A DNA stretch of 23,512 bases from a virus, in the IMG/VR virus record IMGVR_UViG_3300028829_004031, positions 1 to 23,512 of that record; one strand, written 5' to 3'. The notes beneath the pieces are model-generated. The model had not been told where the DNA came from, ran no database searches, and saw only the letters and a list, made by a program, of their open reading frames with translations. Position numbers and translations under genes: made by a program. Positions 2,015 through 22,988 of the stretch are shown piece by piece (within the stretch, counting starts at the first letter, position 1; every line of letters starts with the position of its first letter).

Positions 2015-3136
2015 ATGAATAAACATTTACTAAATAATTTTAATAATAACTCTTTGCAGTATGACAAAGAAAAATACCCCTTTGATAAATATGTATTGTC
2101 AGTTATTCAAGAAGATCACCCTTATGTAGTTGAATTATCAAAGATTCATACATACAATCTTAGCGGTAATCAAATTCTTAAAATTAGTGAAAAGGTTCAA
2201 AAATCTTTTAGTAGTCATGAATTTGGTACTATGATTGATTCATTTGCTAGCGACTATTTACAGCCATTGATTGGGGACACAGAGTTTCTTGTCAAAAGAT
2301 ACCCAACCCTTAATTTTGTTGTTCCTAATCAAGAAGTGATCGGTAGACGTTTACCTTTTCATCAGGGTGTTACTTATGATAATGGTCGTGGGCAAGGAAC
2401 AATTTGGATGCCCTTAACACCAACATTCGATAGTAATTCTATGTATGTTGTTGATCATGAGAGTAGTAAAAAAATTACCACTTTTGCTATTATAAATCAA
2501 ATTACCTTTGAAGAATGGGAGAGATTATGTTTAGAAAGCTCTTATCCTATTAAGTATGATGTTGGGTTTGCTCATCTTTTTCATCAAGAAATAATACACG
2601 GAAATGTTAATAATGTTACCGACAATACTAGAATGGCTATTGACTGGCATATACTATTAAAAGACGAAGAGTTTGGCTGTAGAATTCCTGGAGGGTTTTT
2701 TAGAAAAAAAGAGGACTTCAAAGAAGCTACATTAGTCAATAATTCTCAACAAAGTATTATTTATATATCAAGCAACTCTGAGTATGATAAAAATATTGTT
2801 AAAATACATCAATATAATATGATCAAAGCATACTGTGACGCTAACAATATAGAATATAATTTTAAACTAGAAGAAAACGATCATTTTGCATGGCTGCCCT
2901 ATTTAGAGAGCCTAATGGAGCATGATTACATAGGCACAATACTTATGCTTAGTATATTCAGCCTACCTGATGACAAAGAACGAAGAAGTACAATACTTCA
3001 AAAAGCAGTTAAAAATAAGAAAAAAATTGTTTTTGCAAATGAAATGCAAATTATTGAAAACTTAAAGGATATAGCTACCGTTGAGTACTATAGAACTTTT
3101 GCTGTAAAGAAAAAAGGTAAGTATTATTGGGAATGA
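2015..3136 (+). CDS. 2OG-Fe(II) oxygenase-like / sporadic carbohydrate cluster fusion protein
   Basis: This 373-residue protein appears to be a two-domain fusion. Residues about 20-225 resemble the 2OG-Fe(II) oxygenase found in 'sporadic carbohydrate clusters': a PFHQG segment, then a WMPLTPTFDSNSM strand, then a distal HGNVNN (H195) and R206. Residues about 246-373 resemble the LIC12192-type sporadic carbohydrate cluster protein, with YNMIKAYC, the SLPDDKERR box and the K-I-VFANE strand. These families usually occur as adjacent separate genes in surface-polysaccharide loci. The expected proximal HxD iron site reads H116-Q-G118, so the Asp ligand is absent, as in 2OG halogenases or inactive relatives. 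It overlaps the next gene by ATGA. A role in sugar modification is inferred from the families. Confidence 0.75.
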   Translation: MNKHLLNNFNNNSLQYDKEKYPFDKYVLSVIQEDHPYVVELSKIHTYNLSGNQILKISEKVQKSFSSHEFGTMIDSFASDYLQPLIGDTEFLVKRYPTLNFVVPNQEVIGRRLPFHQGVTYDNGRGQGTIWMPLTPTFDSNSMYVVDHESSKKITTFAIINQITFEEWERLCLESSYPIKYDVGFAHLFHQEIIHGNVNNVTDNTRMAIDWHILLKDEEFGCRIPGGFFRKKEDFKEATLVNNSQQSIIYISSNSEYDKNIVKIHQYNMIKAYCDANNIEYNFKLEENDHFAWLPYLESLMEHDYIGTILMLSIFSLPDDKERRSTILQKAVKNKKKIVFANEMQIIENLKDIATVEYYRTFAVKKKGKYYWE

Positions 3137-3699
3137 TTTACGGTAGTGAAGGTTTAATTGATACTGATTTTATTATCAAAACTAATCTTGATACAGATAA
3201 TCTTGAATGGGAAGAAGCTTACTTATTAGCTGCTAATGAAACAGGGGTTTTGTTTGATTATAAAGGATCAAATGAAAATATAAAACAAGAGCAGCTTTAT
3301 ATCTCAAAGGGTATGAACCCCGAATCAAGTAAGCATTACGCTATGTTTAACGTCTCTTTAGATTTAGATAATTTTTTCCCTAATCATTACTATTATGTGT
3401 CTTACTTAAAATTACCTGCTGGGTATAACTTGTGGTGGCATAGAGATTTTTATTATTCTTTTCTTAATAAGCATAATATAAAAAATAGAAATAAAAATTC
3501 AATCAGAAGAACTATAATTAATCTAAATAATTGGAGTCCAGGTCAGTTATTTCAAGTAGAAGATGCTATTGCAATAGATTGGAAAAAAGGTGATTGTTAT
3601 ACTTTTAGAGAGAATATCTGGCATGGAGTAGGTAACTTCTCGCTTGAAGATTATATAATCATGCAAGTTACTTGGATAGACAAAAATGATATTTTATGA
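3133..3699 (+). CDS. 2OG-Fe(II) oxygenase
   Basis: The ATGA overlap with the previous stop makes ATG 3133 the start, giving 188 residues; a TTG six bases earlier is less likely. The iron-binding site is H103-R-D105 in LWWHRDFYY. It is followed by NNWSPGQLF, the DWKKGD strand and the distal H164 in WHGVGN. The usual basic 2OG-binding residue about ten positions later is not obvious: the segment reads EDYIIMQVT where relatives have R or K. This may mean a different 2OG anchor. It overlaps the radical SAM gene by 4 bases, so the two are translationally coupled and may act on the same substrate. Substrate unknown. Confidence 0.83.
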   Translation: MIYGSEGLIDTDFIIKTNLDTDNLEWEEAYLLAANETGVLFDYKGSNENIKQEQLYISKGMNPESSKHYAMFNVSLDLDNFFPNHYYYVSYLKLPAGYNLWWHRDFYYSFLNKHNIKNRNKNSIRRTIINLNNWSPGQLFQVEDAIAIDWKKGDCYTFRENIWHGVGNFSLEDYIIMQVTWIDKNDIL

Positions 3700-5384
3700 A
3701 AAATGTTTATTTAGCACAGTTTTCTACTGTCTCACTTGATACCTATTACTTTTTTCCTTATTCTGTAGGACTTATTCAGTCTTATGCTCATTCTGTACCT
3801 ATAATTGCAAAAAATTACGATTTAAAACCTCTGCTGTGGAAGAAACTACCAATTGATGAGTTAGTAAACTCACTTGATAATCCTGCAGTATTTGGCTTTT
3901 CTAGCTATGTGTGGAATGCTAACTACAATTTACAACTCGCAAAAGCTGTTAAAGCTAGATACCCAGAGTGTATTATCGTGTTTGGGGGTCCTGGCGTTCC
4001 TGACGCAGATGCAGACTTCTTTGTTAATCATCCTTGGGTTGATTACCTAATCCACACTGAAGGCGAGCAGAGTTTTGCAAATCTTTTAGAGACTCTATTA
4101 AAAGGTCCTTGTAAAACTCATGTTGCAATTCCCAGTAACCGTACTAAATCACTTGACACAATTCCATCACCTTATCTATCTGGCGTATTTGATTCAGTGC
4201 TTGCAGAAGCAGCAGAACAGAAAGTAATCATCAATGCACTACTTGAAACTAACCGTGGTTGCCCTTTTAAATGTACCTTTTGTGATTGGGGAGGGCTCAC
4301 TTTTTCTAAGATTCACTGTTTTGACTTAGACCGAATCAAGCAAGAGATAACCTGGCTAGGCAAAAACCAAATAGAGATGCTTAGTTTAGCTGACGCAAAC
4401 TTTGGTATTTTTCCAGATCGTGATCTTGAGATAGCACAGTGGGCAATAAAAATTAAACAAGAGTATGGATTTCCAAAATACTTTGATACTTCTTGGACTA
4501 AAAACACTAAACCTGTGACTATTGAAACTGCTAAATTATTAATGCAGGCCGGTATGTTGCGCAAGTTTGTTATGAGCCTCCAAACCTTAGATATTCAAAC
4601 TCTAAGCAATATCAAACGCAGAAACATTGATGGTAGTAAGTTTTCACAACTTATTGAAGATCGCAGTGTGAGTGTTTCAACAGAATTAATAGTTGGCTTA
4701 CCAGGTGAAACTCTTGCGTCTTATAAACAAGGAGTGTGTCAGTTGATTGATGATGAGATTAAAATTATCACTAATCCACTTACTTTATTACCTAATTCTG
4801 AGATGAGTACTTCTGAGTATCGCTCTCAATGGTCAATCGAATCTGTTACCTTTAAAAGTTCGTGGTCTTCACATGGTATAGACGAGTGGGAAGAACTTGT
4901 GGTTGCTACCTCTTCTTATACTACTAAAGATTGGAGTGAAATGATACTTTGGGGTTGGCTCACCGTATTTTTAGAAACCTACTACTGGACTGATTTAATA
5001 GCAAAGAGTTATAACACACAAATGTGGTACGATTGGTGTTATGCTTGGTTTAGAACACATAATAACCCCCTTACTCCCTGGCTTTCAAGATGGGAAAATC
5101 ATTTATCTGATGGACTAAGCTATGAATTATGGGGTGGAGGGGTTGGTACTACAGATTTAGATGCAAATCAAGCAATTATAGACAGTACTTGTTGGAATGA
5201 AACTTTAAAGCTATGTGTTAAAGAATTTTGTGATACACATTCTCTTCCTCATCCTTCTACTTATATACTAGAAACACAAGCTAATAGACATAAAGTTATA
5301 GACGGCTATTCATCGCTTTCACAACAGCTTGTCGCAAACCGTTGGAACTTTTTATCGCAAAATTTAGAGCACCAAGCTAACTAG
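3696..5384 (+). CDS. B12-binding-domain radical SAM enzyme
   Basis: A 562-residue protein. Residues about 1-140 form a Rossmann-type cobalamin-binding-like domain (VFGFSSYVWN, FGGPGVPD, HTEGEQSF) without an obvious DxHxxG motif. The radical SAM core follows, with C189-x3-C193-x2-C196 (RGCPFKCTFCDWGG) for the 4Fe-4S cluster and a GLPGE motif in the second half of the barrel. A Trp-rich C-terminal region of about 170 residues follows. The CDWG form is typical of B12-type radical SAM enzymes that methylate or rearrange unreactive carbons in natural products. Its substrate is unknown. It overlaps the 2OG oxygenase upstream and is the last gene before a promoter-bearing gap at 5385-5465. Confidence 0.87.
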   Translation: MKNVYLAQFSTVSLDTYYFFPYSVGLIQSYAHSVPIIAKNYDLKPLLWKKLPIDELVNSLDNPAVFGFSSYVWNANYNLQLAKAVKARYPECIIVFGGPGVPDADADFFVNHPWVDYLIHTEGEQSFANLLETLLKGPCKTHVAIPSNRTKSLDTIPSPYLSGVFDSVLAEAAEQKVIINALLETNRGCPFKCTFCDWGGLTFSKIHCFDLDRIKQEITWLGKNQIEMLSLADANFGIFPDRDLEIAQWAIKIKQEYGFPKYFDTSWTKNTKPVTIETAKLLMQAGMLRKFVMSLQTLDIQTLSNIKRRNIDGSKFSQLIEDRSVSVSTELIVGLPGETLASYKQGVCQLIDDEIKIITNPLTLLPNSEMSTSEYRSQWSIESVTFKSSWSSHGIDEWEELVVATSSYTTKDWSEMILWGWLTVFLETYYWTDLIAKSYNTQMWYDWCYAWFRTHNNPLTPWLSRWENHLSDGLSYELWGGGVGTTDLDANQAIIDSTCWNETLKLCVKEFCDTHSLPHPSTYILETQANRHKVIDGYSSLSQQLVANRWNFLSQNLEHQAN

Positions 5385-5756: not shown

Positions 5757-5977
5757 TTCAACTCTATGAAGCACGCTTAGATAACTGTCTTATGGCTCGT
5801 GACCGTTGTGAAGAAGACAGTTGGGGCTGGATGTTTTGGCAGTCTCGGTTTACAATACTACTTAGACGACTGAATATTGAACTTACAGGGGCGAAGTGTT
5901 ACGGTAGCACAGCTGGCTCCAACCCAGCGGGACAGGGTTCAATTCCTTGCGCCCCTGCCAATAAGGATTTACAATGA
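5753..5977 (+). CDS. Small hypothetical protein reading through the tRNA-Trp gene
   Basis: The ATGA overlap with the previous stop favours the ATG at 5753 (74 aa) over one 24 bases earlier. The first 45 or so residues (MIQLYEARLD...LLRRLNIEL) look like an ordinary small phage protein. The remaining C-terminal part is encoded by the tRNA-Trp gene (5887-5960) and a few bases beyond, and has no protein-like character (rich in G, S, P, C). The likely history is loss of an original stop codon where the tRNA gene sits. Whether the tail is made depends on whether the tRNA is processed out of the message first. It ends ATGA-overlapping with the gene at 5974. Confidence 0.6.
   Translation: MIQLYEARLDNCLMARDRCEEDSWGWMFWQSRFTILLRRLNIELTGAKCYGSTAGSNPAGQGSIPCAPANKDLQ
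5887..5960 (+). tRNA. tRNA-Trp (anticodon CCA)
   Basis: A complete 74-base cloverleaf. The 7-bp acceptor AGGGGCG/CGCCCCT is perfect, followed by discriminator G and an encoded CCA. The D-arm is GTGT-TACGGTA-GCAC. The anticodon arm is GCTGG-CTCCAAC-CCAGC with anticodon CCA at 5919-5921. The T-arm is CAGGG-TTCAATT-CCTTG (one G-U pair). The acceptor and discriminator match bacterial tRNA-Trp identity. Position 8, almost always U, reads A (AA at 5894-5895). It lies entirely inside the 3' part of the frame at 5753-5977 and 13 bases before the next gene. Confidence 0.93.
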
Positions 5978-6177: not shown

Positions 6178-6252
6178 GCGGGTATAGTATAATGGCTATT
6201 ATTGCAGCCTTCCAAGCTGAGGATCGGAGTTCGAGTCTCCGTACCCGCTCCA
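6178..6252 (+). tRNA. tRNA-Gly (anticodon UCC)
   Basis: A complete 75-base cloverleaf. Acceptor GCGGGTA/TACCCGC is perfect, with discriminator T and an encoded CCA. The D-arm is GTA-TAATGGCTAT-TAT. The anticodon arm is GCAGC-CTTCCAA-GCTGA with anticodon TCC at 6211-6213. The T-arm CGGAG-TTCGAGT-CTCCG is perfect. It closely resembles Escherichia coli glyT from memory, with the same anticodon loop and D-loop. The outermost anticodon-stem pair is a G-A mismatch (6204/6219), where E. coli has a U-A pair. It sits between two protein genes with almost no spacer. Confidence 0.95.
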
Positions 6253-6751: not shown

Positions 6752-7279
6752 ATGTTTCTTAAAGAAGTTTCTATAAATTACAACTTTGATTTTATCTACG
6801 ATATTGATTGGGAACAGTTTGAGCACGACTGTTTAGGGCATCAACAAGTAGAACTTAAAGATATTCACGATAAAGTTGGTGGCTTTCCTAAATCATTAAG
6901 TCATTATAACACTATGTTTTATCAAAAATTCTTTGATAACAGTGAAATAGATTATACAGATTTAGGTAATCAACTAGGTATAGAGGCAATTACTGTATCA
7001 ATGATTAAACAACCACCTGGCATGACTAACCCTATGCACCGCGATACTTTTTACCAGATCAATAAGAAATTTCCAAATGAAGAAAGAACAAAAGTCAGAG
7101 CTAACTTACAGCTGTTAGACTGGAAAGCAGGACACTTCTTACAGTTTAATGACACAGTAGTTACGCACTGGAAAGCAAATACGGGACATATGTGGGATTC
7201 AACAGTTCTTCATTTAGCAGCAAATGCAGGTCTAGAAGACCGTTATTCACTTCAAGTTTCAGGATTTTTAAACTCTTAA
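6752..7279 (+). CDS. 2OG-Fe(II) oxygenase
   Basis: A 175-residue oxygenase with the phage-type motif series. A QPPG strand leads to the iron site H96-R-D98. Next come LLDWKAGHFLQFND, HWKANTGHMWDS and the distal H154 (VLHLAANAG), then R164 for 2OG and the closing strand YSLQVSGF. It is the same subfamily as the enzymes at 15250 and 18903-22988. Its stop overlaps the aminotransferase start (TAATG), so it belongs to the same transcription unit and may hydroxylate a product of that pathway. Confidence 0.88.
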   Translation: MFLKEVSINYNFDFIYDIDWEQFEHDCLGHQQVELKDIHDKVGGFPKSLSHYNTMFYQKFFDNSEIDYTDLGNQLGIEAITVSMIKQPPGMTNPMHRDTFYQINKKFPNEERTKVRANLQLLDWKAGHFLQFNDTVVTHWKANTGHMWDSTVLHLAANAGLEDRYSLQVSGFLNS

Positions 7280-8211
7280 TGGTTCGCTATACAAATCTTC
7301 CCGACAATAAGAACAAACCTTTTGGAGGTGCTTACAGTGTTTATGATGAAAATACTGTATCTCATCGCGACTACTTAATTCAAGAGTATGCAAAAGATAC
7401 TTTAAGTCTCGACTTTGAGCAACTTAAACTTGATTATTTTGATGAATTTAAACACTTTCTCGGAAATTCTCATAATTTAATTGGTCTTGATTCTTACATT
7501 CATTCTTGTTTTACTCAAGGCACGACTGAATCCTTTACTCATTTTTATATTAGATATAGAAATAAAAACAGATTGAGGCTTGCTCGTGGAGAGTATTTTT
7601 ATCATCAGATGATAAAATCTATGTACTATCCTATGCGCTTTGATTGGTTAGAAGATGATGAGCTAAAACAAGGAGACGTGTTAGTAATTAGTGCTCCTTT
7701 TTCTGATACTTGTGAACTATATCCAAATCTTGAGCAAATACTATGTGAGTGTGATGAAAAAGAAATACCTGTTCTTTTGGATCTTGCATATCTTAATATT
7801 GCAATTGATTTGGAGATAGACTTATCGCACCCTTGTTTAGAGTATGTTGTGTCTTCTCTTTCTAAAGTTTTTCCTGTAGAGAATCATAGGATAGGTATCA
7901 GATTACAAAAAGAGATATTTGAAGACCCGTTATATGTAATTAACGAGCCCAATTATAACTATATTAATATGTTAAGCGTGTACTTAGGTTTAAAAATGAT
8001 GCAAGAGTTTGGTCCTACCTATATTTACAATAAATACGTAAATAAACAGCAAGAGTACTGTATGAAATTAGGTCTTAAACCTACTTCTTGTGTGTATTTT
8101 GGGTTAGATCTTGATAACAAATTTCCAGAATATAATAGAGGTAGAGAACATAATCGTTTGTGTTTTTCTAGATTATGGGATGGTAGAATGACTTATGAAC
8201 CTCCTATTTGA
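7279..8211 (+). CDS. PLP-dependent aminotransferase-like enzyme (fold type I)
   Basis: An in-frame ATG exists 87 bases earlier, but the TAATG junction with the upstream gene favours 7279 (310 aa). Signature elements of fold type I PLP enzymes are present in order: a phosphate-binding TQGTTES (79-85), a possible stacking aromatic in GEYFYH (about 105-109), the pyridine-binding D168 (LLDLAYL), and the Schiff-base Lys K196 (SSLSK) followed by an Arg-rich strand. It is shorter than typical aminotransferases (about 380-420), so the N-terminal or C-terminal small domain is reduced. A damaged paralogue lies at 17112-17868. Next to an amidinotransferase, it plausibly installs the amine that is then amidinated, as in streptidine-type pathways; this is inference. 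Confidence 0.75.
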   Translation: MVRYTNLPDNKNKPFGGAYSVYDENTVSHRDYLIQEYAKDTLSLDFEQLKLDYFDEFKHFLGNSHNLIGLDSYIHSCFTQGTTESFTHFYIRYRNKNRLRLARGEYFYHQMIKSMYYPMRFDWLEDDELKQGDVLVISAPFSDTCELYPNLEQILCECDEKEIPVLLDLAYLNIAIDLEIDLSHPCLEYVVSSLSKVFPVENHRIGIRLQKEIFEDPLYVINEPNYNYINMLSVYLGLKMMQEFGPTYIYNKYVNKQQEYCMKLGLKPTSCVYFGLDLDNKFPEYNRGREHNRLCFSRLWDGRMTYEPPI

Positions 8212-9277
8212 TTCATTAAATAAACCTAATTTAGAATCTTATAACGCACCCAATGCATATTCCTATTTTTATCACAAAGGTTTTTATGTACCACAGATAT
8301 TCTATCAATACAAAGATATAATTAAATGTTATACTACTAATCAGATTAATGAGTTGGATTTTTTTGTATATCCAATTAATTTCTGTGATCCCTATTACCA
8401 CCCAGAGCTAAATAAAAGCGGTAAGTTCTTAACCCACATTGATAAACAGGTATTAGACAAAGTAAAAAACAATAAAGGTATTATTTTAATTGATGCTATT
8501 TATGAAGCCTTTAATCTAAATCATTCTTTGGAACTCAAAGAGAATATTGAAAAACTAACGGGTATCAATAATGTATTTTTAAATTCAAGATTTTTTCATC
8601 TATTTCCTGATGATACTTTTTTTACAAACTTTCCTTCTCTTCTTGAATTTTCTGAGTGCCATGTACAAATTGACAACGAAATTAAGGTTAATACAAATAA
8701 AAAATTCTGCCTATTTGGTTCTAGTATTGATAAACACATTGGTGGTCTATGTCTTATAAAGTGGTTAAAAGAGCAAAAACTTCTTTCTCAGGGTCACATA
8801 AGTTTATCTCGTACCACTAGTGTCCTTGATAATGGTCGTTGGTTAGCGTTTATACGTCCTTTTATAGCTATAGATGCTCTTAACTACGTTGACTTCAATA
8901 TTGTTGTAGAATCGTGGTTTACCTCTGTAGGCAATGAAGATTATCCATTCTTATCTGAGAAAGTATTTAGAAATATCCATTATAAAAAACCTTTTGTATT
9001 AGTAGGGCAGGTAGATACTATTAAACAGTTTAAAAGGTTAGGCTATAAAACTTATGATGAAGTGTTTGACGAGTCTTATGACACAGAAAAAGACAGTTAT
9101 ATTAGGTTACACAAAGTCTTTACACAAATACAACGGTTGATTAATGAACCAGAAGATTTCTGGCAGAAAAACAAAGAAAAACTAGATGATATACATAATC
9201 ATAACTTAAATAATTACAAAAATAGAATACTAAGTTTAAGTAAATTTTATGAAGATCTTACACGTGGAGTAATTTAA
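8195..9277 (+). CDS. Glycosyltransferase-like protein, copy 1
   Basis: A 360-residue protein homologous to the product at 10292. The C-terminal third carries the shared block DFNIVVES...PFLSEKVFRN...KKPFVLVG...LGYKTYDEVFDESYD (about 233-297). It resembles the nucleotide-sugar-binding C-terminal domain of GT-B type glycosyltransferases (the E-K...P..F...G pattern), as seen in many unannotated marine phage proteins. Residues 170-180 (KFCLFGSSIDK) could start the second Rossmann-like half. No transmembrane segment is seen. It overlaps the aminotransferase by 17 bases and the amidinotransferase by 1 base. Sugar transfer is a plausible function; donor and acceptor are unknown. Confidence 0.62.
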   Translation: MNLLFDSLNKPNLESYNAPNAYSYFYHKGFYVPQIFYQYKDIIKCYTTNQINELDFFVYPINFCDPYYHPELNKSGKFLTHIDKQVLDKVKNNKGIILIDAIYEAFNLNHSLELKENIEKLTGINNVFLNSRFFHLFPDDTFFTNFPSLLEFSECHVQIDNEIKVNTNKKFCLFGSSIDKHIGGLCLIKWLKEQKLLSQGHISLSRTTSVLDNGRWLAFIRPFIAIDALNYVDFNIVVESWFTSVGNEDYPFLSEKVFRNIHYKKPFVLVGQVDTIKQFKRLGYKTYDEVFDESYDTEKDSYIRLHKVFTQIQRLINEPEDFWQKNKEKLDDIHNHNLNNYKNRILSLSKFYEDLTRGVI

Positions 9278-10299
9278 TGAGCTGCAATAACGATTGGGAT
9301 CCCTTAGAAGAAATCATTGTAGGAACTGCTGACTTTGCAAATATACCTGTTCCTAATATCAGCGTAATGAAATCTCAATTTCCTGAGTACGAAGAGACTT
9401 TTATCAAAGAGTTTACAGGGTTTTACCCAGACCAAATCATAGAAGAACAAAACGAAGACTTAGACAAACTTGCAGACGTATTAAAAAGATTAGGAGTTAC
9501 AGTTCATCGTCCTGATACGTCGTACGCTACAGCTGAAACTAAATCTCCTACTTGGCATGGAAAAAATTGGCATTATTATAGTCCAAGAGATCTTACTCTT
9601 GTTGTAGGCGATACACTCATAGAAACTCCTTCACCAATTTGGAATCGTCAATTTGAAACATGGGGTTATAGAGATGTTTTTACTAAGCTTTGGCATGAAG
9701 GATATAATTGGATTAAAGCACCCGTTCCAATGCTTTACGATGAGAACTATAAAGAAGATACAAAAGGCGTACCTTCTTTGCACAATGAAGAAATACTTTT
9801 TGAGGCAGCTAATTGTGTTCGTATGAATGATGATATACTCTATCAAGTATCAAACACCGGTAATGAAAACGGAGCTAAATGGTTACAACGAGTTTTAGGA
9901 GATTCTTATAAAGTACACGTAGCAAAAGATCTTTATTCTTATGCTCATCTTGATAGTACTATTGTTCCATTGAGAGAAGGTCTTGTACTATATAACGCAA
10001 CAAGGGTAACTCCTCAAAACGAACCTGAAGTATTCAAAAACTGGGATAAGATTTGGGTCCATGACTGTGTAGGATCGGCTAATTCCTTCAATCTTCCTTG
10101 GGGTGCAAGTGAGTGGATTGGCATGAACTTACTCAGCGTAAATGAAAATCTTGCTATTGTAGATAAAAAACAAACTGAAATCCACGATAAACTTAATCGT
10201 TTTGGTATTGAAACTATTCCTCTCGAATTAAGACATGATAGAGTTTTAGCTGGAGGGTTCCACTGCGTAACTCTCGATCTCAAAAGAAAAAATGCTTAA
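9277..10299 (+). CDS. Glycine/inosamine-type amidinotransferase
   Basis: A 340-residue enzyme of the arginine:glycine / arginine:inosamine-phosphate amidinotransferase family, which transfers the amidino group of arginine to an amine. Visible landmarks: SPRDLTLVVGDTLIE (D105), LFEAANCVR (176-179), YAHLDSTIVPLREGLVL (H224, D226) and the catalytic C330 in AGGFHCVTLDL. The length fits StrB-type and AGAT cores (about 340-420). Where vertebrate AGAT has FDAAD, this protein has FEAAN, so one acidic residue near the active site differs. Its TAATG start couples it to the glycosyltransferase-like gene, and its end overlaps the next by 8 bases. The acceptor (glycine, an amino sugar or an inosamine) cannot be told. 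Confidence 0.9.
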   Translation: MSCNNDWDPLEEIIVGTADFANIPVPNISVMKSQFPEYEETFIKEFTGFYPDQIIEEQNEDLDKLADVLKRLGVTVHRPDTSYATAETKSPTWHGKNWHYYSPRDLTLVVGDTLIETPSPIWNRQFETWGYRDVFTKLWHEGYNWIKAPVPMLYDENYKEDTKGVPSLHNEEILFEAANCVRMNDDILYQVSNTGNENGAKWLQRVLGDSYKVHVAKDLYSYAHLDSTIVPLREGLVLYNATRVTPQNEPEVFKNWDKIWVHDCVGSANSFNLPWGASEWIGMNLLSVNENLAIVDKKQTEIHDKLNRFGIETIPLELRHDRVLAGGFHCVTLDLKRKNA

Positions 10300-13694: not shown

Positions 13695-14606
13695 ATGACA
13701 CAAAAAATTAAATGGTTACTCTTTCATGAGCCTGCTGAATTGTTCATCCGTACTGCACGACACTTTGAACAAGAACTTAATGCTTTGACAGATGGAGCCT
13801 ATGAGTTTGAGATTTTAGAACTCGCAGACTATGAAACAAAATACTTAAATGGCAATCGTTGTGACCCTATTACAGAGTTAAAAGAAGGTCGTGTTCAAAT
13901 GAGCCAGATCTACATTAACAACTTAGCTCGTGCAAATGTTACTAACTTCTTAGCACTAGGACTACCTTTCCTTTTCCGCGATCATGCTCATGCAGCTCGC
14001 GTATTTGAAGGTGAAATTGGTGCAGAACTTTTAGAGAATATCAAAGAACGCATTGGTATCAAAGGTCTTTCGTTTACCTACTCTGGTGGATATAAGTGTA
14101 TGGCAGTAAACCGTTCTATCAAGCAAGTCTCTGATTTTGCAGGATTAAAGTATAAAGTTCGTCCAAATGCTGTTTCTTCTTCAATCTTTGATGCACTTGG
14201 CGCAACTCCTGCTGAGAAGTCTGATATTGATATTGCTGATACAACTCTTCCTCGCTATCATGCTGATGCTCGTGAAGATCAAACCTATGCTATCAATACG
14301 GGTCATGCAATGTATCTCACTACAATTCTAACCAACAATGAAATGTTCAACGCCATGAGCGAAGAGCATCAAGCAGCTTTTGTAAAGGCAGCTAAGATTG
14401 CGGCTTCTGCTGAACGCACACAAAGTGTACAAGATGCAAACGAAATTGCAACTACTCCAACTCTTCAGCGTGAGCGTGGAATTAATGAATTTATTACTTG
14501 GAATGAATCTCAGCTTGAAGAACTACGTGCTCGGTTGATTCCAGTTCTTAACTCTTGGAAAGCCTACTTTCCGAATGACTTGGTTAACCGCATCCAAGCT
14601 TGTTAA
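13695..14606 (+). CDS. TRAP/DctP-type solute-binding protein without signal peptide
   Basis: A 303-residue protein of the DctP family of TRAP-transporter substrate-binding proteins. Family landmarks are LPFLFRDHAHAARVFEGEIG (about 95-114), the GLKYKVRPNAVSSSIFDALGATP segment with the carboxylate-binding Arg, and a long C-terminal helix region (MSEEHQAAFVKAAKIAA). Normal members have a Sec signal peptide and 320-340 residues; this one begins directly with the first strand (MTQKIKWLLFHEPAE) and would stay in the cytoplasm or virion. No membrane TRAP subunits are nearby. It has its own strong promoter and ribosome binding site, and its sequence looks more G+C-rich than its neighbours. It may bind a metabolite inside the infected cell or form a structural element. 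Confidence 0.82.
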   Translation: MTQKIKWLLFHEPAELFIRTARHFEQELNALTDGAYEFEILELADYETKYLNGNRCDPITELKEGRVQMSQIYINNLARANVTNFLALGLPFLFRDHAHAARVFEGEIGAELLENIKERIGIKGLSFTYSGGYKCMAVNRSIKQVSDFAGLKYKVRPNAVSSSIFDALGATPAEKSDIDIADTTLPRYHADAREDQTYAINTGHAMYLTTILTNNEMFNAMSEEHQAAFVKAAKIAASAERTQSVQDANEIATTPTLQRERGINEFITWNESQLEELRARLIPVLNSWKAYFPNDLVNRIQAC

Positions 14607-15249: not shown

Positions 15250-15810
15250 ATGAGAAAAGCTACTAATGATATTGACTACAAAAGTTCTCTTAGATATGTA
15301 GGTAATATGAACTTTGATTTTGAGACCTATATAAATAACTTTCATAAAGGTCCTCGTAAGGTTGATCCTTACACTAGAATGGCACGTGAACAAGCTACTT
15401 TCTTACTAGAAAATTTAGATGCAGAAGATGAGCTTTTTAATTACTTAAAAGTTTTTATGAAATCTAGGTTTAATATGTCCCACTTCGATCCTACAGTAAC
15501 TTACTGTCCTCCTGGATCTATTACTTTCCCACATATTGATGTTTATAAAGGTGGAAGACGAAGGCTTGGTCTAGATATTCCAGAGGATGATAATTTATAT
15601 AAAATATTTACTAAGTTTTGGATTCCAATGGAGGATAGAAAGTATGGTCATATTCTAGAAGTTAATGGAGTTATTCTACCTGCATGGAACGCTGGTGATA
15701 TTTGGACTTTTGATGATAACAGAAATCATTACGCTGCTACACTAGGTATGGAACCTCGATATTTTCTTGCCATCTCTGGTATACATGATGATGTGTGGGA
15801 AACCCTTTAG
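15250..15810 (+). CDS. 2OG-Fe(II) oxygenase
   Basis: A 186-residue oxygenase with GAGGAAAC as ribosome binding site before the ATG. The motif series is CPPGSITF followed by the iron site H95-I-D97, then KFWIPMEDRKYGHILEVNG, the PAWNAGDIW strand, distal H160 (NRNHYAAT), R170 (EPRYFLAISG) for 2OG, and a short tail. It is the same phage-type subfamily as the enzyme at 6752 and the five at 18903-22988. It stands alone rather than in a coupled pair, preceded by the structured intergenic element. Substrate unknown. Confidence 0.88.
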   Translation: MRKATNDIDYKSSLRYVGNMNFDFETYINNFHKGPRKVDPYTRMAREQATFLLENLDAEDELFNYLKVFMKSRFNMSHFDPTVTYCPPGSITFPHIDVYKGGRRRLGLDIPEDDNLYKIFTKFWIPMEDRKYGHILEVNGVILPAWNAGDIWTFDDNRNHYAATLGMEPRYFLAISGIHDDVWETL

Positions 15811-16992: not shown

Positions 16993-17134
16993 CGATCATC
17001 AAGCAGCAGAAGTTTTATTTCTTAGAAAACAGGTAGCAGAACTTAGAGATACTATTGAGTTCCTTAAAGAAGATAATAGAGAGCTTACTAAGTGTTACTA
17101 TAAGGTATTGCATGATAAAAACAAAGAGACCTAG
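16967..17134 (+). CDS. Small coiled-coil protein (55 aa), GTG start
   Basis: GTG at 16967, about 8 bases after GGGGAG, opens a 55-residue frame beginning (M)DSDKLIFNDHQAAEVLFLRK and ending at TAG 17132. The middle has clear heptads (AAEVLFLRKQVAELRDTIEFLKE), so it is very likely a coiled coil. It lies in a different frame from the previous gene (26-base overlap) and overlaps the start of the damaged aminotransferase (23 bases). The strong ribosome binding site and protein-like sequence support a real gene. Confidence 0.7.
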   Translation: MDSDKLIFNDHQAAEVLFLRKQVAELRDTIEFLKEDNRELTKCYYKVLHDKNKET

Positions 17135-17868
17135 ATTTCAGCAGGGAAAGTTCGTTCCAGATCCTACCCTGCTTTCTTTTAATCCAAATATTGATTTATC
17201 ACTTGTTAATGATGATTCTGTTTCTGATAAGTATTTAGATACTTATCGTTCTTGGATACTTTCGACAAAAAACAACAGTCTATCTGGTTTGTCTTATTTC
17301 CCTTTTGCTGCTTTTTCACAAGGTACAACCGAAGCTTTTGATAAATTCTACGTTCGACACTCTAAACGAGTTTTTAGAGTTTTTCGTGGAGAATATGCTT
17401 ATCATAAAATAATGTTTAAATCAGGACTTGATTGGTCTTTTATTGAAGATTCTCCACTAAGTAAAAATGATGCACTAATTATTTCAATTCCTTTTGCTAA
17501 ATATTGATCTTACTTATCCTTGTATCAGAGAAGTTACTTTTTCTCTTTCAAAAACATTTCCAGTGTCCAGATTTAGGGTTGGTATTAGATTTTCAAAGGA
17601 GGACTATGAAGCTGACGGCTTGTTTTCTCATAATAAAAATAAATATATAAATTTCTTCTCTCAACACCTTGGTATTCAATATATGTTAAACTTTTCTCCA
17701 GATTATTTATTTGATACATACAGAGCTAAACAACTAGCGTTATGTTCTAAACTCGCTGTTAATCCCTCTAATGTAGTCTCTCTTGCTACTACACGCGATG
17801 AACAATGGAAGCATCTATGTAGAGGAGGAGAGTATTTTAGACTTTGTTTGTCGGATGAATTGGTATAA
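17112..17868 (+). pseudogene. Broken second copy of the PLP aminotransferase-like gene
   Basis: The 5' part (from ATG 17112, MIKTKRPRFQ...) and the 3' part (about 17496-17868, in another frame) together match the gene at 7279. Shared segments are FSQGTTEAFDKFY (intact FTQGTTESFTHFY), FRGEYAYHK, IISIPFA, then NIDLTYPC (intact EIDLSHPC), FSLSKTFPVSRFRVGIR with the PLP Lys, and the RGGEYFRLCLS end. At about 17496-17510 roughly 35 codons are missing, including the PLP-binding Asp segment LLDLAYL, and the frame changes by one. A single intact enzyme cannot be produced. Outside the gap the sequence is still protein-like, so the damage is recent or an assembly error. Confidence 0.82.
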
Positions 17869-18902: not shown

Positions 18903-19712
18903 ATGGAAAAGCTAACTCCAAGCCAAACTAATGCTGATTACAGCGAAATACCAGAAGATATTGAATATTATATAAAAGAAAGTGTAATGGCAAAACAACC
19001 AGAACTTACTTTATGGGAGTTTATGGATACACGCCCTGACTTAGATTATGAGCGTTGGGCTATTAAAATAGGTAGTACACTTACTGAAACTTATGAAGCC
19101 AAACCCTTTGCTCGGTTAGATATAAACGAACAAGATTTCTACGATTTCATGAGTAACAACAAACAAACTTGTCAAAAAAAGTATTATGAACGTCGTCCCT
19201 ACCATGGAAGCGGAGATAGTGAGTTGACTAGTAATTACCCAATGAAATGCGGGTATAATGCTAGAAATACTATTGAGTATAATTGGGGGCTTTATGGTGA
19301 CTCAAATGAGCGCGTAAAAGAATTAATAGGTACAAGAGATGTATGGGAGAATATTATCGGTATCGACTACGATACTGCTTTGATTCGTCTCATGGCGTAT
19401 CTGCCTGGTCAAACACTACCTTGGCATCATGATAATTTAGGAAACTGGTGTAGAAATAATAAACATCTTAACCCCGATGTTGACGCACAAATGTGTGATC
19501 TTGGTCCTATTAAAAGACACTTGGTTATGATCACTGATTGGCATTGGGGGCACGTTCTTCAAATTGAAAATTCATATTTTCCTAATTGGAAATCTGGTGA
19601 GCTTTATAACTTACCGATTCCTCGTCCTCATTGTAGCACTAATATGGGCATGAAACTCAAACTTACTTGTAGTATATCGGGAGCACAAATTAATGAAAAC
19701 TTATCCTATTAA
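18903..19712 (+). CDS. 2OG-Fe(II) oxygenase (first of five in a run)
   Basis: A 269-residue protein with a strong AAAGGAG ribosome binding site. The oxygenase core is in the second half: LPGQTLPW then H175-H-D177, KRHLVMITDWHWGHVLQIEN, FPNWKSGELYNL, distal H243 (RPHCSTNMG), and K251 in the position usually held by Arg, closing with LTCSISG. The N-terminal 140 residues (PEDIEYYIKESV, LWEFMDTRPDLDYERWA) resemble those of the proteins at 21071 and 22233 in having an E-F/x-L-D-x-W leader. It overlaps the next gene by 20 bases. Confidence 0.88.
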   Translation: MEKLTPSQTNADYSEIPEDIEYYIKESVMAKQPELTLWEFMDTRPDLDYERWAIKIGSTLTETYEAKPFARLDINEQDFYDFMSNNKQTCQKKYYERRPYHGSGDSELTSNYPMKCGYNARNTIEYNWGLYGDSNERVKELIGTRDVWENIIGIDYDTALIRLMAYLPGQTLPWHHDNLGNWCRNNKHLNPDVDAQMCDLGPIKRHLVMITDWHWGHVLQIENSYFPNWKSGELYNLPIPRPHCSTNMGMKLKLTCSISGAQINENLSY

Positions 19713-20412
19713 AGCTGATCTAGACTTATACGTTGATCCTTACGCAGCTATTCCACAAGAGATCATCAAACAAAATCCTTGGCACTGGGATCCACAAGAA
19801 ACTAATCATAAAGATGGTGATTCTTTTCTTTACACTGATGCCTCTATCAACTGGTTTGGGCTTGCTGAATGGGCTGTTGCTGAAGCTAATGAAATTAGAA
19901 CTCCACAAAAATATTGGTGGTGGGATGAAGAAAATGAACAAGCAATGCATGCTGATGAATCTGTTAATCATTGTCCTATTTTTGAAACTTGTACTCAGTG
20001 GATGGTTCAAAATGATTATAATGAGCACAATACTCGTTACTTTAAGTTTGCAAACCATGAATTAGGAGCTTTCTATGAACCACTTAAAGCTATGTTTGCC
20101 CATAAGCTTAAGGATATGACTATGAGTTTATTTGTACAACCACCTGGTCAAACTATGCCAACTCACGTTGATACCTTCTCCTCTTATATGAGAAAAACTG
20201 GAGAATATCCAGACTACTCAAAGCTGCGTAGGTATATGACTTTCGTTTCAGATTGGGATTGGGGACACTATTTTCACTATGGAAATCACATAATGCAGCC
20301 TTGGAAAGCAGGAGATACTTGGGATTTAGTACCTGGTATTTATCATGGGAGTGCAAATTGTGGTGTTACACCAAAAGTTACAATGCATTGGAGTGGTAAA
20401 TGTATAGAATAG
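19693..20412 (+). CDS. 2OG-Fe(II) oxygenase (second of five)
   Basis: A 239-residue, strikingly Trp-rich oxygenase (about 5% Trp). The core is LFVQPPGQTMPT then H158-V-D160, TFSSYMRKTGEY, YMTFVSDWDWGHYFHYGN, QPWKAGDTWDL, distal H218 (YHGSANCG), and K228 where an Arg is common, ending VTMHWSGK. The N-terminal region includes YWWWDEENEQ. It is the closest relative of the next protein (20400): both share the F(A/x)NHE/FHDTELN-x-FYxPL helix before the core. It overlaps its neighbours by 20 and 13 bases. Confidence 0.9.
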   Translation: MKTYPIKADLDLYVDPYAAIPQEIIKQNPWHWDPQETNHKDGDSFLYTDASINWFGLAEWAVAEANEIRTPQKYWWWDEENEQAMHADESVNHCPIFETCTQWMVQNDYNEHNTRYFKFANHELGAFYEPLKAMFAHKLKDMTMSLFVQPPGQTMPTHVDTFSSYMRKTGEYPDYSKLRRYMTFVSDWDWGHYFHYGNHIMQPWKAGDTWDLVPGIYHGSANCGVTPKVTMHWSGKCIE

Positions 20413-21074
20413 ATATTAAAAAAGAATTTGAAGATATGTTTCCATGGCATTATGATGCCTTGTCTACACAAAAACAAGACTGTCCTAAATTAGGTACATT
20501 AGATTTTGATTTCAAACCTTTAGTTGAATTAGTATTTGAACTTTGTGAAAACCAAAACCCAAAAACAAGTGGTAAAGGATTTAGTCATTACTTTGAAAAT
20601 AATAAGGTAAAAGAAAATTTAATCAACAGTAGGGACAACAAATTCAAAAAACTATTTGATACATGGATAAAGTCAAATTGGACTATAGACAATAGTTGTT
20701 ATTATGAGTTTCATGATACCGAATTAAATGAGTTTTATAAACCGTTATTAGAAGCATACGAAAATAGAGTAGGTAAATTACAAAATGTACAACTACGTGT
20801 ATTCGTTAAACCACCAATGACTGCGCTAGGCTTACACGCAGATACTTTTGGAACTTATAAAAGAAAGTATGACGTTAGAGAAAATGAAGTATTTCGTGCT
20901 ATGACTTTTGTAGAAGATTGGGAATGGGGACACTACACACTAATAGGAAATGAAGTATGTCACCAATACAAAGCAGGTGATACCATTCAAATACAACCCA
21001 ATGTTTTTCATTGTTCTGGAAATATAGGGTTTAATCCACAAATCACTATGAATATAACGGGGACAAAAACATGA
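20400..21074 (+). CDS. 2OG-Fe(II) oxygenase (third of five)
   Basis: A 224-residue paralogue of the preceding enzyme. Shared landmarks are an FPWHYDA start, EFHDTELNEFYKPL, and RVFVKPPMTALGL then H146-A-D148. Next come TFGTYKRKYD, AMTFVEDWEWGHYTLIGN, HQYKAGDTIQI, distal H204 (VFHCSGNIG), and Q214 where Arg or Lys is expected, ending ITMNITG. The start lies 13 bases inside the previous gene. The missing basic 2OG residue may be supplied from elsewhere. This and the preceding gene look like a tandem duplication that has diverged strongly. Confidence 0.88.
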   Translation: MYRIDIKKEFEDMFPWHYDALSTQKQDCPKLGTLDFDFKPLVELVFELCENQNPKTSGKGFSHYFENNKVKENLINSRDNKFKKLFDTWIKSNWTIDNSCYYEFHDTELNEFYKPLLEAYENRVGKLQNVQLRVFVKPPMTALGLHADTFGTYKRKYDVRENEVFRAMTFVEDWEWGHYTLIGNEVCHQYKAGDTIQIQPNVFHCSGNIGFNPQITMNITGTKT

Positions 21075-21991
21075 CAGAGACACAATATATTAAAAAGACA
21101 CATGAGGAGATAGATCATTCATCTAATAGACTTCTCAATGTCGAGCATCTGCACCAACACCCTTACGATCCTGAAGTACTTGAGAGTATTAGAGACGATA
21201 TACTAAAGCCCAGGACCTGCAAAGAATTTATGGATTGGTTAGAAACTCACCCACACTACGACATGGTTGCTGAAGCGAGTAGCCAGTTTATACGAGGCAC
21301 CCATCAAGACGACTGTTTTTATCAATGTGCAAAGATTAACACTGACTGGAGTAATATAACTTCTCGTATACAAAAATATGCAGATGAGAATCAAATTAAC
21401 GAAAAGTTTGATACAGGCTATACCAAAGAATGGCGAGTGTTTCCAATGAAGAAACAAAAAGAATTTGTACCGTTTAGGCACAATTCCGAACTTGATAATA
21501 TGCGATCGCACGGGTTTACAAAACAATATCAACTCATTGAAGTAACCTTAACTGAGAACTTTCCTGAACTCAAACAGATTGAAAAACTTTTTGACTTTGA
21601 ATGGGGCAAAGCAGATATAAATTATCAACCAACTAGTGGTCAATTTCCTAGGCACGTTGATTTCTTGACTACACCATTTAGAAGAGCTATTGAAACTGAC
21701 TCTAAATTAGCAAATACAAAGTATAATCCATACACAAAAACACCAGAAGGTTATAGCATGACTAGGATCTTAATTGCTTTGGAAGATTGGGTTCCAGGTC
21801 AGATGTTTATGTTTGAGAATTATTCTTGGAATAACTGGAAAGCAGGAGATACAATAAATTTCGCATGGCACTCATGTAGACACTCTACAAGTAATTGTAG
21901 TTACAGACCTAGACCTTTGATGAAAATATCAGGTATGGTTAGAGATGACCATTGGTTAGCTAAGAAACAATTTAAGGAGTTTACATTATGA
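21071..21991 (+). CDS. 2OG-Fe(II) oxygenase (fourth of five)
   Basis: The largest stand-alone 2OG enzyme in the window (306 residues). A 180-residue N-terminal region of unknown fold (CKEFMDWLETHPHYDM) precedes the core. The core is INYQPTSGQFP then R-H195-V-D197, SMTRILIALEDWVPGQMFMFEN, NNWKAGDTINFAW, distal H271 (CRHSTSNCS), R279/R281 and LMKISGMVRDD. The closing motif and the YSMTRILIALEDW strand match the protein at 22233, so those two form a second paralogous pair. It overlaps both neighbours by 4 bases (ATGA). Confidence 0.9.
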   Translation: MTETQYIKKTHEEIDHSSNRLLNVEHLHQHPYDPEVLESIRDDILKPRTCKEFMDWLETHPHYDMVAEASSQFIRGTHQDDCFYQCAKINTDWSNITSRIQKYADENQINEKFDTGYTKEWRVFPMKKQKEFVPFRHNSELDNMRSHGFTKQYQLIEVTLTENFPELKQIEKLFDFEWGKADINYQPTSGQFPRHVDFLTTPFRRAIETDSKLANTKYNPYTKTPEGYSMTRILIALEDWVPGQMFMFENYSWNNWKAGDTINFAWHSCRHSTSNCSYRPRPLMKISGMVRDDHWLAKKQFKEFTL

Positions 21992-22236
21992 TAAGATATA
22001 CACTACTTAAAGAAAAAATGTTAAAAGACGTAGAGTCTTTACAAAAAGACGATTTCTATTTATTAGAAGGCAAATTAATCTTCAAGGAAGAACAAAAAAG
22101 TTTAGCTGCTAAGAACTATTTAGAAAAACACTACGGAACTGTTGAGGTGTTAAAAGCAAACAATCACTCACACTGGAGCAGCCAATACAAAATTGAATTG
22201 TATTTTACGAGTTTATCGGAAGGGATGCAAGCATGA
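21988..22236 (+). CDS. Unknown small protein between oxygenases (82 aa)
   Basis: An 82-residue charged protein (MIRYTLLKEKMLKDVESLQK...) with an ATGA overlap at both ends and AAGGAG upstream, firmly within the oxygenase run. The pattern of strands and helices (FYLLEGKLIFKEEQKSLAAKNYLEKHYGTVEVLKA) suggests a small alpha/beta fold. No known motif is visible. Its position between two related oxygenases suggests an accessory role, but this is only contextual. Confidence 0.72.
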   Translation: MIRYTLLKEKMLKDVESLQKDDFYLLEGKLIFKEEQKSLAAKNYLEKHYGTVEVLKANNHSHWSSQYKIELYFTSLSEGMQA

Positions 22237-22988
22237 CAAAATTAGAACAAACTATGGAAATTTGGAATAATGTAAACACGGTGGATGATTTTATAAACTT
22301 TATAGAAAACCCTAACATTGATTACATGAACTGGTCTGCTAGTTTTGCTGATTCAAGTAAAAGTGGATATTGGATTGGGGCAAGAATCGAAAACTTACCT
22401 GACGTATCTCATTTGTTAGATAATAGCCCACAAATTAAGGCAACAGAATTAAGTTCTACAACTATGACTTCATCAGAGTTAGAATATCACAAGAATTTTA
22501 ATTTTGGAAATGGGTATGATAGACATATACCAACACAAGATTTAATGAAGATCGCTGAATTACTAGGTTTTGAAGATCCTAGTGCGTATTTGAATAATCA
22601 ACCTCCAGCTACACTAATGGGCAGACACGTTGATTGTATAACGTGTTTTTTACACGAACGAACTGAAGAACTTAAAAATCAAAAGTTTGACCGAGTAAGA
22701 AGGCAACCACAAGGAAGTAAAAATGTATGGAGATGCTTTGTTGCATTAGACGATTGGCACCCAGGACAAATAGTAAACTTTGAACCTAATTTTTGGACTC
22801 ACTGGAAAAAGGGAGATGTTTTATTTTTTAATTGGCAATTTACTGCACACAGCACTGCAAACACGGGAGTACACAACAGACCTTTTTTGAAGATCACAGG
22901 CACTATGAAAGACGATCAGTTTGTATTAGATGCTAAAGAAAATCAAAATAAAATAAAAGTATTTAATATTTCTAAAATTAATTCATGA
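22233..22988 (+). CDS. 2OG-Fe(II) oxygenase (fifth of five)
   Basis: A 251-residue oxygenase. The N-terminal leader TVDDFINFIENPNIDYMNW resembles the leaders at 18903 and 21071. The core is QPPATLMG then R-H132-V-D134, KNVWRCFVALDDWHPGQIVNFEP, THWKKGDVLFFNW, distal H206 (AHSTANTG), R216 and LKITGTMKDDQF. It is closest to the protein at 21071. The stop is followed by the motif and hairpin at 22988-23045, so it ends the oxygenase transcription unit. Confidence 0.9.
   Translation: MTKLEQTMEIWNNVNTVDDFINFIENPNIDYMNWSASFADSSKSGYWIGARIENLPDVSHLLDNSPQIKATELSSTTMTSSELEYHKNFNFGNGYDRHIPTQDLMKIAELLGFEDPSAYLNNQPPATLMGRHVDCITCFLHERTEELKNQKFDRVRRQPQGSKNVWRCFVALDDWHPGQIVNFEPNFWTHWKKGDVLFFNWQFTAHSTANTGVHNRPFLKITGTMKDDQFVLDAKENQNKIKVFNISKINS

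Follow-up and report, generated by a model that had tools for sequence, protein, structure and literature searches.

The window analysed here is a whole IMG/VR viral contig of 23,512 bases. On its plus strand lies a gene that fuses a 2OG oxygenase domain, with HxG instead of HxD at the iron site, to a TIGR04323-like domain (Table 1). With the NCBIfam models, the focal protein matched TIGR04324 (sporadic carbohydrate cluster 2OG-Fe(II) oxygenase) over residues 30-210 and TIGR04323 (LIC12192 family) over residues 250-358. The scores were 63.9 bits (curated cut-off 150) and 36.6 bits (cut-off 55), respectively, and the protein thus falls outside TIGR04324 membership by the curated cut-off. All 55 family members matched the TIGR04324 model, and 53 of the 55 matched the TIGR04323 model.

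The HxG enzyme family was spread over marine and freshwater phages. The focal protein showed no match in the phage collection and one weak match in the plasmid records. As a single query it found no direct sequence relatives in the PDB, and the family profile reached PtlH at an E-value of 0.44. No literature naming the sporadic carbohydrate-cluster family was found. In some phage contigs, L014, L015, L137, and L140, the HxG fusion gene occurs twice, as divergent copies that lie on opposite strands. The sole match in the genome-contig scan was L079 (CAJQJC010000067.1), which is binned as Pelagibacter but, judged by the neighbouring genes, looks like phage DNA.

Table 1. Positions of the fusion gene, its parts, and the neighbouring genes in the window
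Feature	Positions	Strand	Basis or remark
HxG 2OG-oxygenase/TIGR04323 fusion gene	2015..3136	+	373 aa, uninterrupted from ATG to stop
PhyH-type double-stranded beta-helix (2OG oxygenase) domain	2093..2719	+	About residues 27-235
H116-Q117-G118, proximal iron His and Gly replacing the Asp ligand	2360..2368	+	143/144 viral HxG; aligned on bacterial HSD
Q191-E192; E192, three residues ahead of H195, may be a second-shell or ligand residue	2585..2590	+	Acid in every HxG member
H195, distal iron His	2597..2599	+	Invariant, 151/151
R206, presumed 2OG-binding Arg	2630..2632	+	Invariant, 151/151
C-terminal TIGR04323-like domain (residues 240-373) with a predicted serine-recombinase catalytic-domain fold	2732..3133	+	Separate prediction, Foldseek, VIA
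Asp_Arg_Hydrox-like 2OG oxygenase, HRD, cluster 1	3127..3699	+	Overlaps focal stop; PF05118 weak, E 0.0074
B12-binding radical SAM protein, KedN5-like	3696..5384	+	NF033712 E 8e-71, 239 bits, cut-off 700
Second cluster-1 Asp_Arg_Hydrox-like oxygenase (HRD)	6752..7279	+	
PLP aminotransferase-like protein, cluster 3	7192..8211	+	Aminotran_1_2 E 0.0056
StrB1-like amidinotransferase, cluster 2	9277..10299	+	Inosamine-phosphate amidinotransferase 1bwd, E 1e-88

Domains of the fusion protein and neighbouring genes

The AF2 model of the whole chain had a mean pLDDT of 94.3. With this model, Foldseek returned CurA halogenase domains first (E 3e-9), followed by PtlH, SnoK, EctD, and others. VIA placed PtlH first, with a Z-score of 14.7 and an rmsd of 3.5 over 210, and hydroxylases led its ranking. 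PF05721 matched 31 of the 55 family members (best value 8.6e-6). On the predicted model, the structural matches establish the PhyH fold, and they do not separate a halogenase from a hydroxylase.

The C-terminal domain, predicted alone, had a pLDDT of 87.2. Foldseek placed serine recombinases on top, and VIA gave Z-scores of 8.7-12.2 to serine recombinases (rank one 12.2), with the next unrelated match at 7.1. Serine recombinases have a YxRVS motif. When the conserved columns were read by eye, and not from a residue-level structural alignment, YxxxN stood at the YxRVS place and DRxxR was not seen. The domain apparently has neither the nucleophilic Ser nor the catalytic Arg residues; that it binds substrate or holds a dimer are guesses. 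In bacterial loci, TIGR04323 is a separate gene adjoining the oxygenase gene, and the phage protein is therefore a natural fusion. The two domains probably work together.

In many related contigs we observed the gene order fusion gene, Asp_Arg_Hydrox-like HxD oxygenase, aminotransferase-like gene, and StrB1-like amidinotransferase. Where fusion and oxygenase genes were neighbours on the same strand, the next ORF started −54 to +11 bases from the fusion end (stop-to-stop ORFs). In other contigs, a NAD-dependent epimerase or B12 radical SAM gene preceded the fusion gene. One contig group held the cassette between phage replication genes, with ribonucleotide reductase/PhoH on one side and RusA-like resolvase/thymidylate synthase on the other. 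The HxD triplet was found by plain pattern match in all 51 sampled cluster-1 oxygenase ORFs, which makes the HxG of the focal protein more striking. The SLSK-type lysine motif was present in 27 of 32 cluster-3 members, one of which (L069) matched Aminotran_1_2 at E 8e-6, and the GGFHC motif in 29 of 31 cluster-2 members.

Several other features of the window and of related phages were noted. Nine more ORFs of the fragment have 2OG-oxygenase-like HxD motifs (HYD, HRD, HRD, HID, HHD, HVD, HAD, HVD, and HVD), and such ORFs lie at 1039-1581, 3127-3699, 6752-7279, 15250-15810, and 18903-22988. A second cluster-3 aminotransferase-like gene is split into overlapping ORFs at 17055-17507 and 17494-17868, perhaps by a frameshift or an assembly error. 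The gene at 13695-14606 encodes a DctP-type periplasmic solute-binding protein (PF03480, E 1.4e-30), and tRNA genes for Trp (cca) and Gly (tcc) stand within the gene island at 5887-5960 and 6178-6252. Annotated relatives of the amidinotransferase gene, whose product resembles StrB1 of streptomycin synthesis, occur in Synechococcus phage S-SCSM2R and in Campylobacter phages. The cultured Pelagibacter phage Mosig EXVC030M (L230) has a similar biosynthetic island beside its tail fibre genes, with carbamoyltransferase, radical SAM, aminotransferases, Asp_Arg_Hydrox, and N-acetyltransferase.

The iron site and the phage branch

The first-pass annotation had placed H116-Q-G118 at the HxD site and had noted that H195 and R206 were kept. 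These positions were confirmed in the intact 373-aa ORF, where 11 residues separate H195 from R206. Profile–profile alignment (hhalign) of the focal family with bacterial TIGR04324, the sporadic carbohydrate cluster oxygenases, gave a probability of 99 and an E-value of 8e-19. It ran through the motif with no gaps and set FHQG on LHSD, so H116 is the proximal ligand position, as had been supposed, and Gly118 takes the place of the Asp ligand. This gapless alignment rules out a misplaced motif. A nearby compensating Asp, for example D122, is also ruled out, because relatives have G, N, or K there. Bacterial TIGR04324 proteins, sampled from the SAR11 order and other genomes, showed HSD, HAD, or similar at the site in the multiple alignment. 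Of the PhyH-type superfamily features, the distal His and the 2OG Arg are present in the focal protein and the HxD/E carboxylate ligand is absent. The focal family has the Fe/2OG halogenase feature, HXG/A replacing HXD/E, and also the AspH-like feature, two histidines and no carboxylate in the HxD position.

When viral sequences were scanned with several segments of the protein, 150 distinct homologues were found in addition to the query. Of the 144 rows that covered the motif, 142 read HQG and one HKG, over about 28-85% identity to the query; at 90% redundancy HxG was found in 69 of 70. Only L301, a distant viral outgroup, was HxD: this protein of 220 aa reads HSD, is 25% identical, and stands alone, with no C-terminal domain. 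A scan with an HQD-carrying query returned relatives that were all HxG where the motif was readable. Two further viral scans, with queries designed after bacterial HxD relatives, yielded a single weak match and no match, respectively.

The dN/dS ratio in the oxygenase part was about 0.10 (dN 0.075-0.084, dS 0.73-0.83, against relatives of 82-85% identity), and the Gln codon of the motif varied synonymously among relatives. N123 and D210 were strongly conserved, with D210 invariant or nearly so; H187 was less conserved in the most distant members. The first-pass annotation had also considered an inactive protein. The invariance or near invariance of HxG, H195, R206, and D210, together with the purifying selection on the gene, led us to reject an inactive remnant. 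The protein could instead be no longer a redox enzyme, as an inactive or regulatory partner, or the substrate could fill the vacancy, as in a substrate-ligated iron enzyme; we regard this as the least likely reading. The fused recombinase-fold domain, apparently devoid of catalytic residues, would suit a scaffold, and an HxD oxygenase often adjoins the fusion gene. However, a dead enzyme need not keep H116, H195, and R206 invariant over so wide a range of identity. The focal protein is probably an active two-histidine open-site 2OG enzyme.

A maximum-likelihood tree was built from 44 sampled proteins, of which 12 were HxG, and these 12 formed a single group with a support of 100/99. As the sampled bacterial TIGR04324 relatives are HxD, HxG marks a phage offshoot. 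By the alignments and the tree, the HxG family is a conserved, phage-specific branch of the bacterial HxD family, with two presumed iron histidines. The earlier idea of an HxG-bearing carbohydrate-cluster subfamily was therefore correct in that a separate HxG clade related to TIGR04324 exists, but the bacterial TIGR04324 family is itself HxD. The nearest HxD relative in the sampled tree was L227, from a SAR11-order genome. A two-sequence search gave it a weak match to the C-terminal domain (16 bits, E 9e-7), which faintly suggests that L227 may already have this domain, in which case the fusion would be older than the Asp loss.

The acid before the distal histidine and the proposed chemistry

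In the AF2 model, E192 lay in the turn, three residues long, between strands 185-190 and 194-197 of the beta VI-VII hairpin. At position 192, Glu was found in 148 rows; the HKG member had Asp, and the HxD outgroup L301 had Lys. The bacterial HxD relatives have mostly Ser, Thr, Gly, Ala, or Cys there; L094, which is also HxD, is an exception with Glu. Position 191, four residues before the distal His, was Gln in 148 of 149 rows and Asn in the HxD outgroup; Gln was common among HxD relatives too. E192, acidic in every HxG member, is the one residue that stands out as a possible substitute for the lost carboxylate.

It is improbable, in our view, that E192 (or D210) binds the iron and re-forms a facial triad, giving a rearranged 2-His-1-carboxylate site and ordinary hydroxylation. 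The acid at position 192 in all HxG members, different in most HxD relatives, and the near invariance of D210 would suit such a triad. However, the hairpin turn is an unusual place for a ligand, D210 is found in HxD proteins too, and prolyl 4-hydroxylase was inactive after its triad residues were moved (PMC2767507).

E192 might instead steady a water in the vacant site, in the role that D721 has in AspH, and the substrate would then be hydroxylated or otherwise oxidised by a two-histidine enzyme. In human AspH, which has H679 and H725, water W1 in the carboxylate site is held by D721, and the enzyme hydroxylates with no halogenation (PMC13168262). HxG alone is therefore no proof of a halogenase. 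Every HxG member has an acid three positions ahead of the distal His, where most HxD relatives have none, and this favours the AspH-like hydroxylase. AspH has its acid four residues before the distal His, however, and the focal family has at that position no acid but the Gln that many HxD relatives share. L094 has the acid together with HxD, so the acid need not compensate for the lost Asp. With a differently shaped turn, the acid at −3 could still act like D721. Though doubtful, AspH-like hydroxylation is a serious rival, somewhat behind halogenation.

Halogenation by the focal enzyme is the leading reading, and we hold it tentatively. The replacement of HXD/E by HXG/A is the accepted mark of Fe/2OG halogenases, and homologues filtered by it gave nucleotide halogenases (PMC11186838). 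The same mark is used by an annotation pipeline (PMC12871659), and the plant halogenase DAH originated via a D-to-G change (PMC12346261). Among the TIGR01762 chlorinating-enzyme members, one had HQG (WHQGDTF) and two had WHQADTF; genuine members have WHQADTFANASG and WHQGDTFAGLNGG, against FHQGVTYDNGRG. The best Foldseek matches, the CurA halogenase domains, also point towards a halogenase. In the halogenase HctB, Glu223 lies near the halide, four residues before the distal ligand His227. The focal family has Gln, not an acid, at this position, which speaks for halogenation; this Gln does not fit the pattern of AspH, and no repulsion of a halide is expected from it.

Other results stand against halogenation. 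Prolyl 4-hydroxylase gave no halogenase after a D-to-A or D-to-G change (PMC2767507), and carboxylate removal alone was insufficient in a BesD-like hydroxylase (PMC13244439). E192 could bind water or iron and disfavour an anion, and the Foldseek rank of the CurA domains, obtained with a predicted model, reflects the shared fold only. Alignment with the SyrB2 family, which the first-pass annotation had proposed, did not place the protein there: TIGR01762 and the 55 members showed no match at E<=10, and hhalign gave an E-value of 0.04.

As a whole, the best explanation is an open-site radical halogenase with the phytanoyl-CoA-dioxygenase (PhyH) fold, working in a phage pathway, to which we give slightly less than an even chance. 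The loss of the carboxylate with the other presumed cofactor residues kept, the conservation, the fusion, and the gene cassette are read from the sequences themselves, and the chemistry would run as follows. Asp would have changed to Gly118 in the ancestor of the phage clade, and the iron would be held only by H116 and H195. 2OG would chelate the iron, anchored by R206, and a halide would most likely fill the vacated site. Once O2 is activated and a hydrogen is abstracted, the resulting substrate radical would take the halogen. The pathway, judged by its neighbours, would make an aminated or guanidinylated sugar-like compound, with the HxD oxygenase, the aminotransferase-like enzyme, and the StrB1-like amidinotransferase as partners. 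A pathway from C-H to C-O, C-N, and C-guanidine is a reasonable guess, in which the halogen might serve transiently as a leaving group. The fuller proposal is more tentative again than halogenation by itself: phage-specific Fe(II)/2OG radical halogenases would derive from a bacterial carbohydrate-cluster hydroxylase, with the Asp lost and the partner fused, and would halogenate, perhaps only transiently, a phage-made amino- or guanidino-sugar-like compound.

Relation to known enzymes

If the halogenase reading is true, infecting marine and freshwater phages would form C-halogen bonds at unactivated carbons. If the enzyme is AspH-like instead, it would be a second, apparently unrelated two-histidine 2OG hydroxylase, which bears on the choice between halogenation and hydroxylation. 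On either reading, the homologous HxD and HxG enzymes and the correlated acid offer a natural comparison for these two outcomes.

The closest known family is homologous over residues about 30-230 (64 bits): bacterial TIGR04324 proteins share the distal HGN and R with the focal protein and have a TIGR04323 partner. The bacterial members are HxD and stand-alone, whereas the phage clade is HxG and fused to TIGR04323, carries an additional acid at −3, and scores below the cut-off.

PtlH, EctD, and other PhyH-fold hydroxylases have the same fold (VIA Z 12-14.7) and the same His/Arg frame, but they keep the Asp ligand; PtlH reads HQD. AspH, the aspartate/asparagine beta-hydroxylase, belongs to a different sequence family from the focal enzyme. 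The human enzyme is similar in its two histidines, the missing carboxylate ligand, and an acid shortly before the distal His. It differs in the position of this acid, D721 at −4 against −3 in the focal family with Gln at −4, and in its substrate, EGF-like domains.

The Fe/2OG halogenases (SyrB2/TIGR01762, CurA Hal, WelO5, BesD, DAH, and AdaV/CtNTH) share with the focal enzyme two histidines, Gly or Ala for Asp/Glu, and the 2OG Arg, and the SyrB2/CurA-type halogenases also share its PhyH-type fold. In contrast to the focal family, the three TIGR01762 members that were read have Thr at the E192 place, and the focal family lies outside TIGR01762 by sequence. In the sampled tree the phage group was placed elsewhere than the halogenases, suggesting that its D-to-G change arose separately.

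The phage halogenases in the literature searched were flavin enzymes only, and flavin-dependent halogenase genes are reported in marine phages, namely cyanophages (review PMC10452541). The cyanophage halogenases are unrelated flavin enzymes, whereas the focal enzyme would use Fe(II)/2OG on aliphatic C-H.
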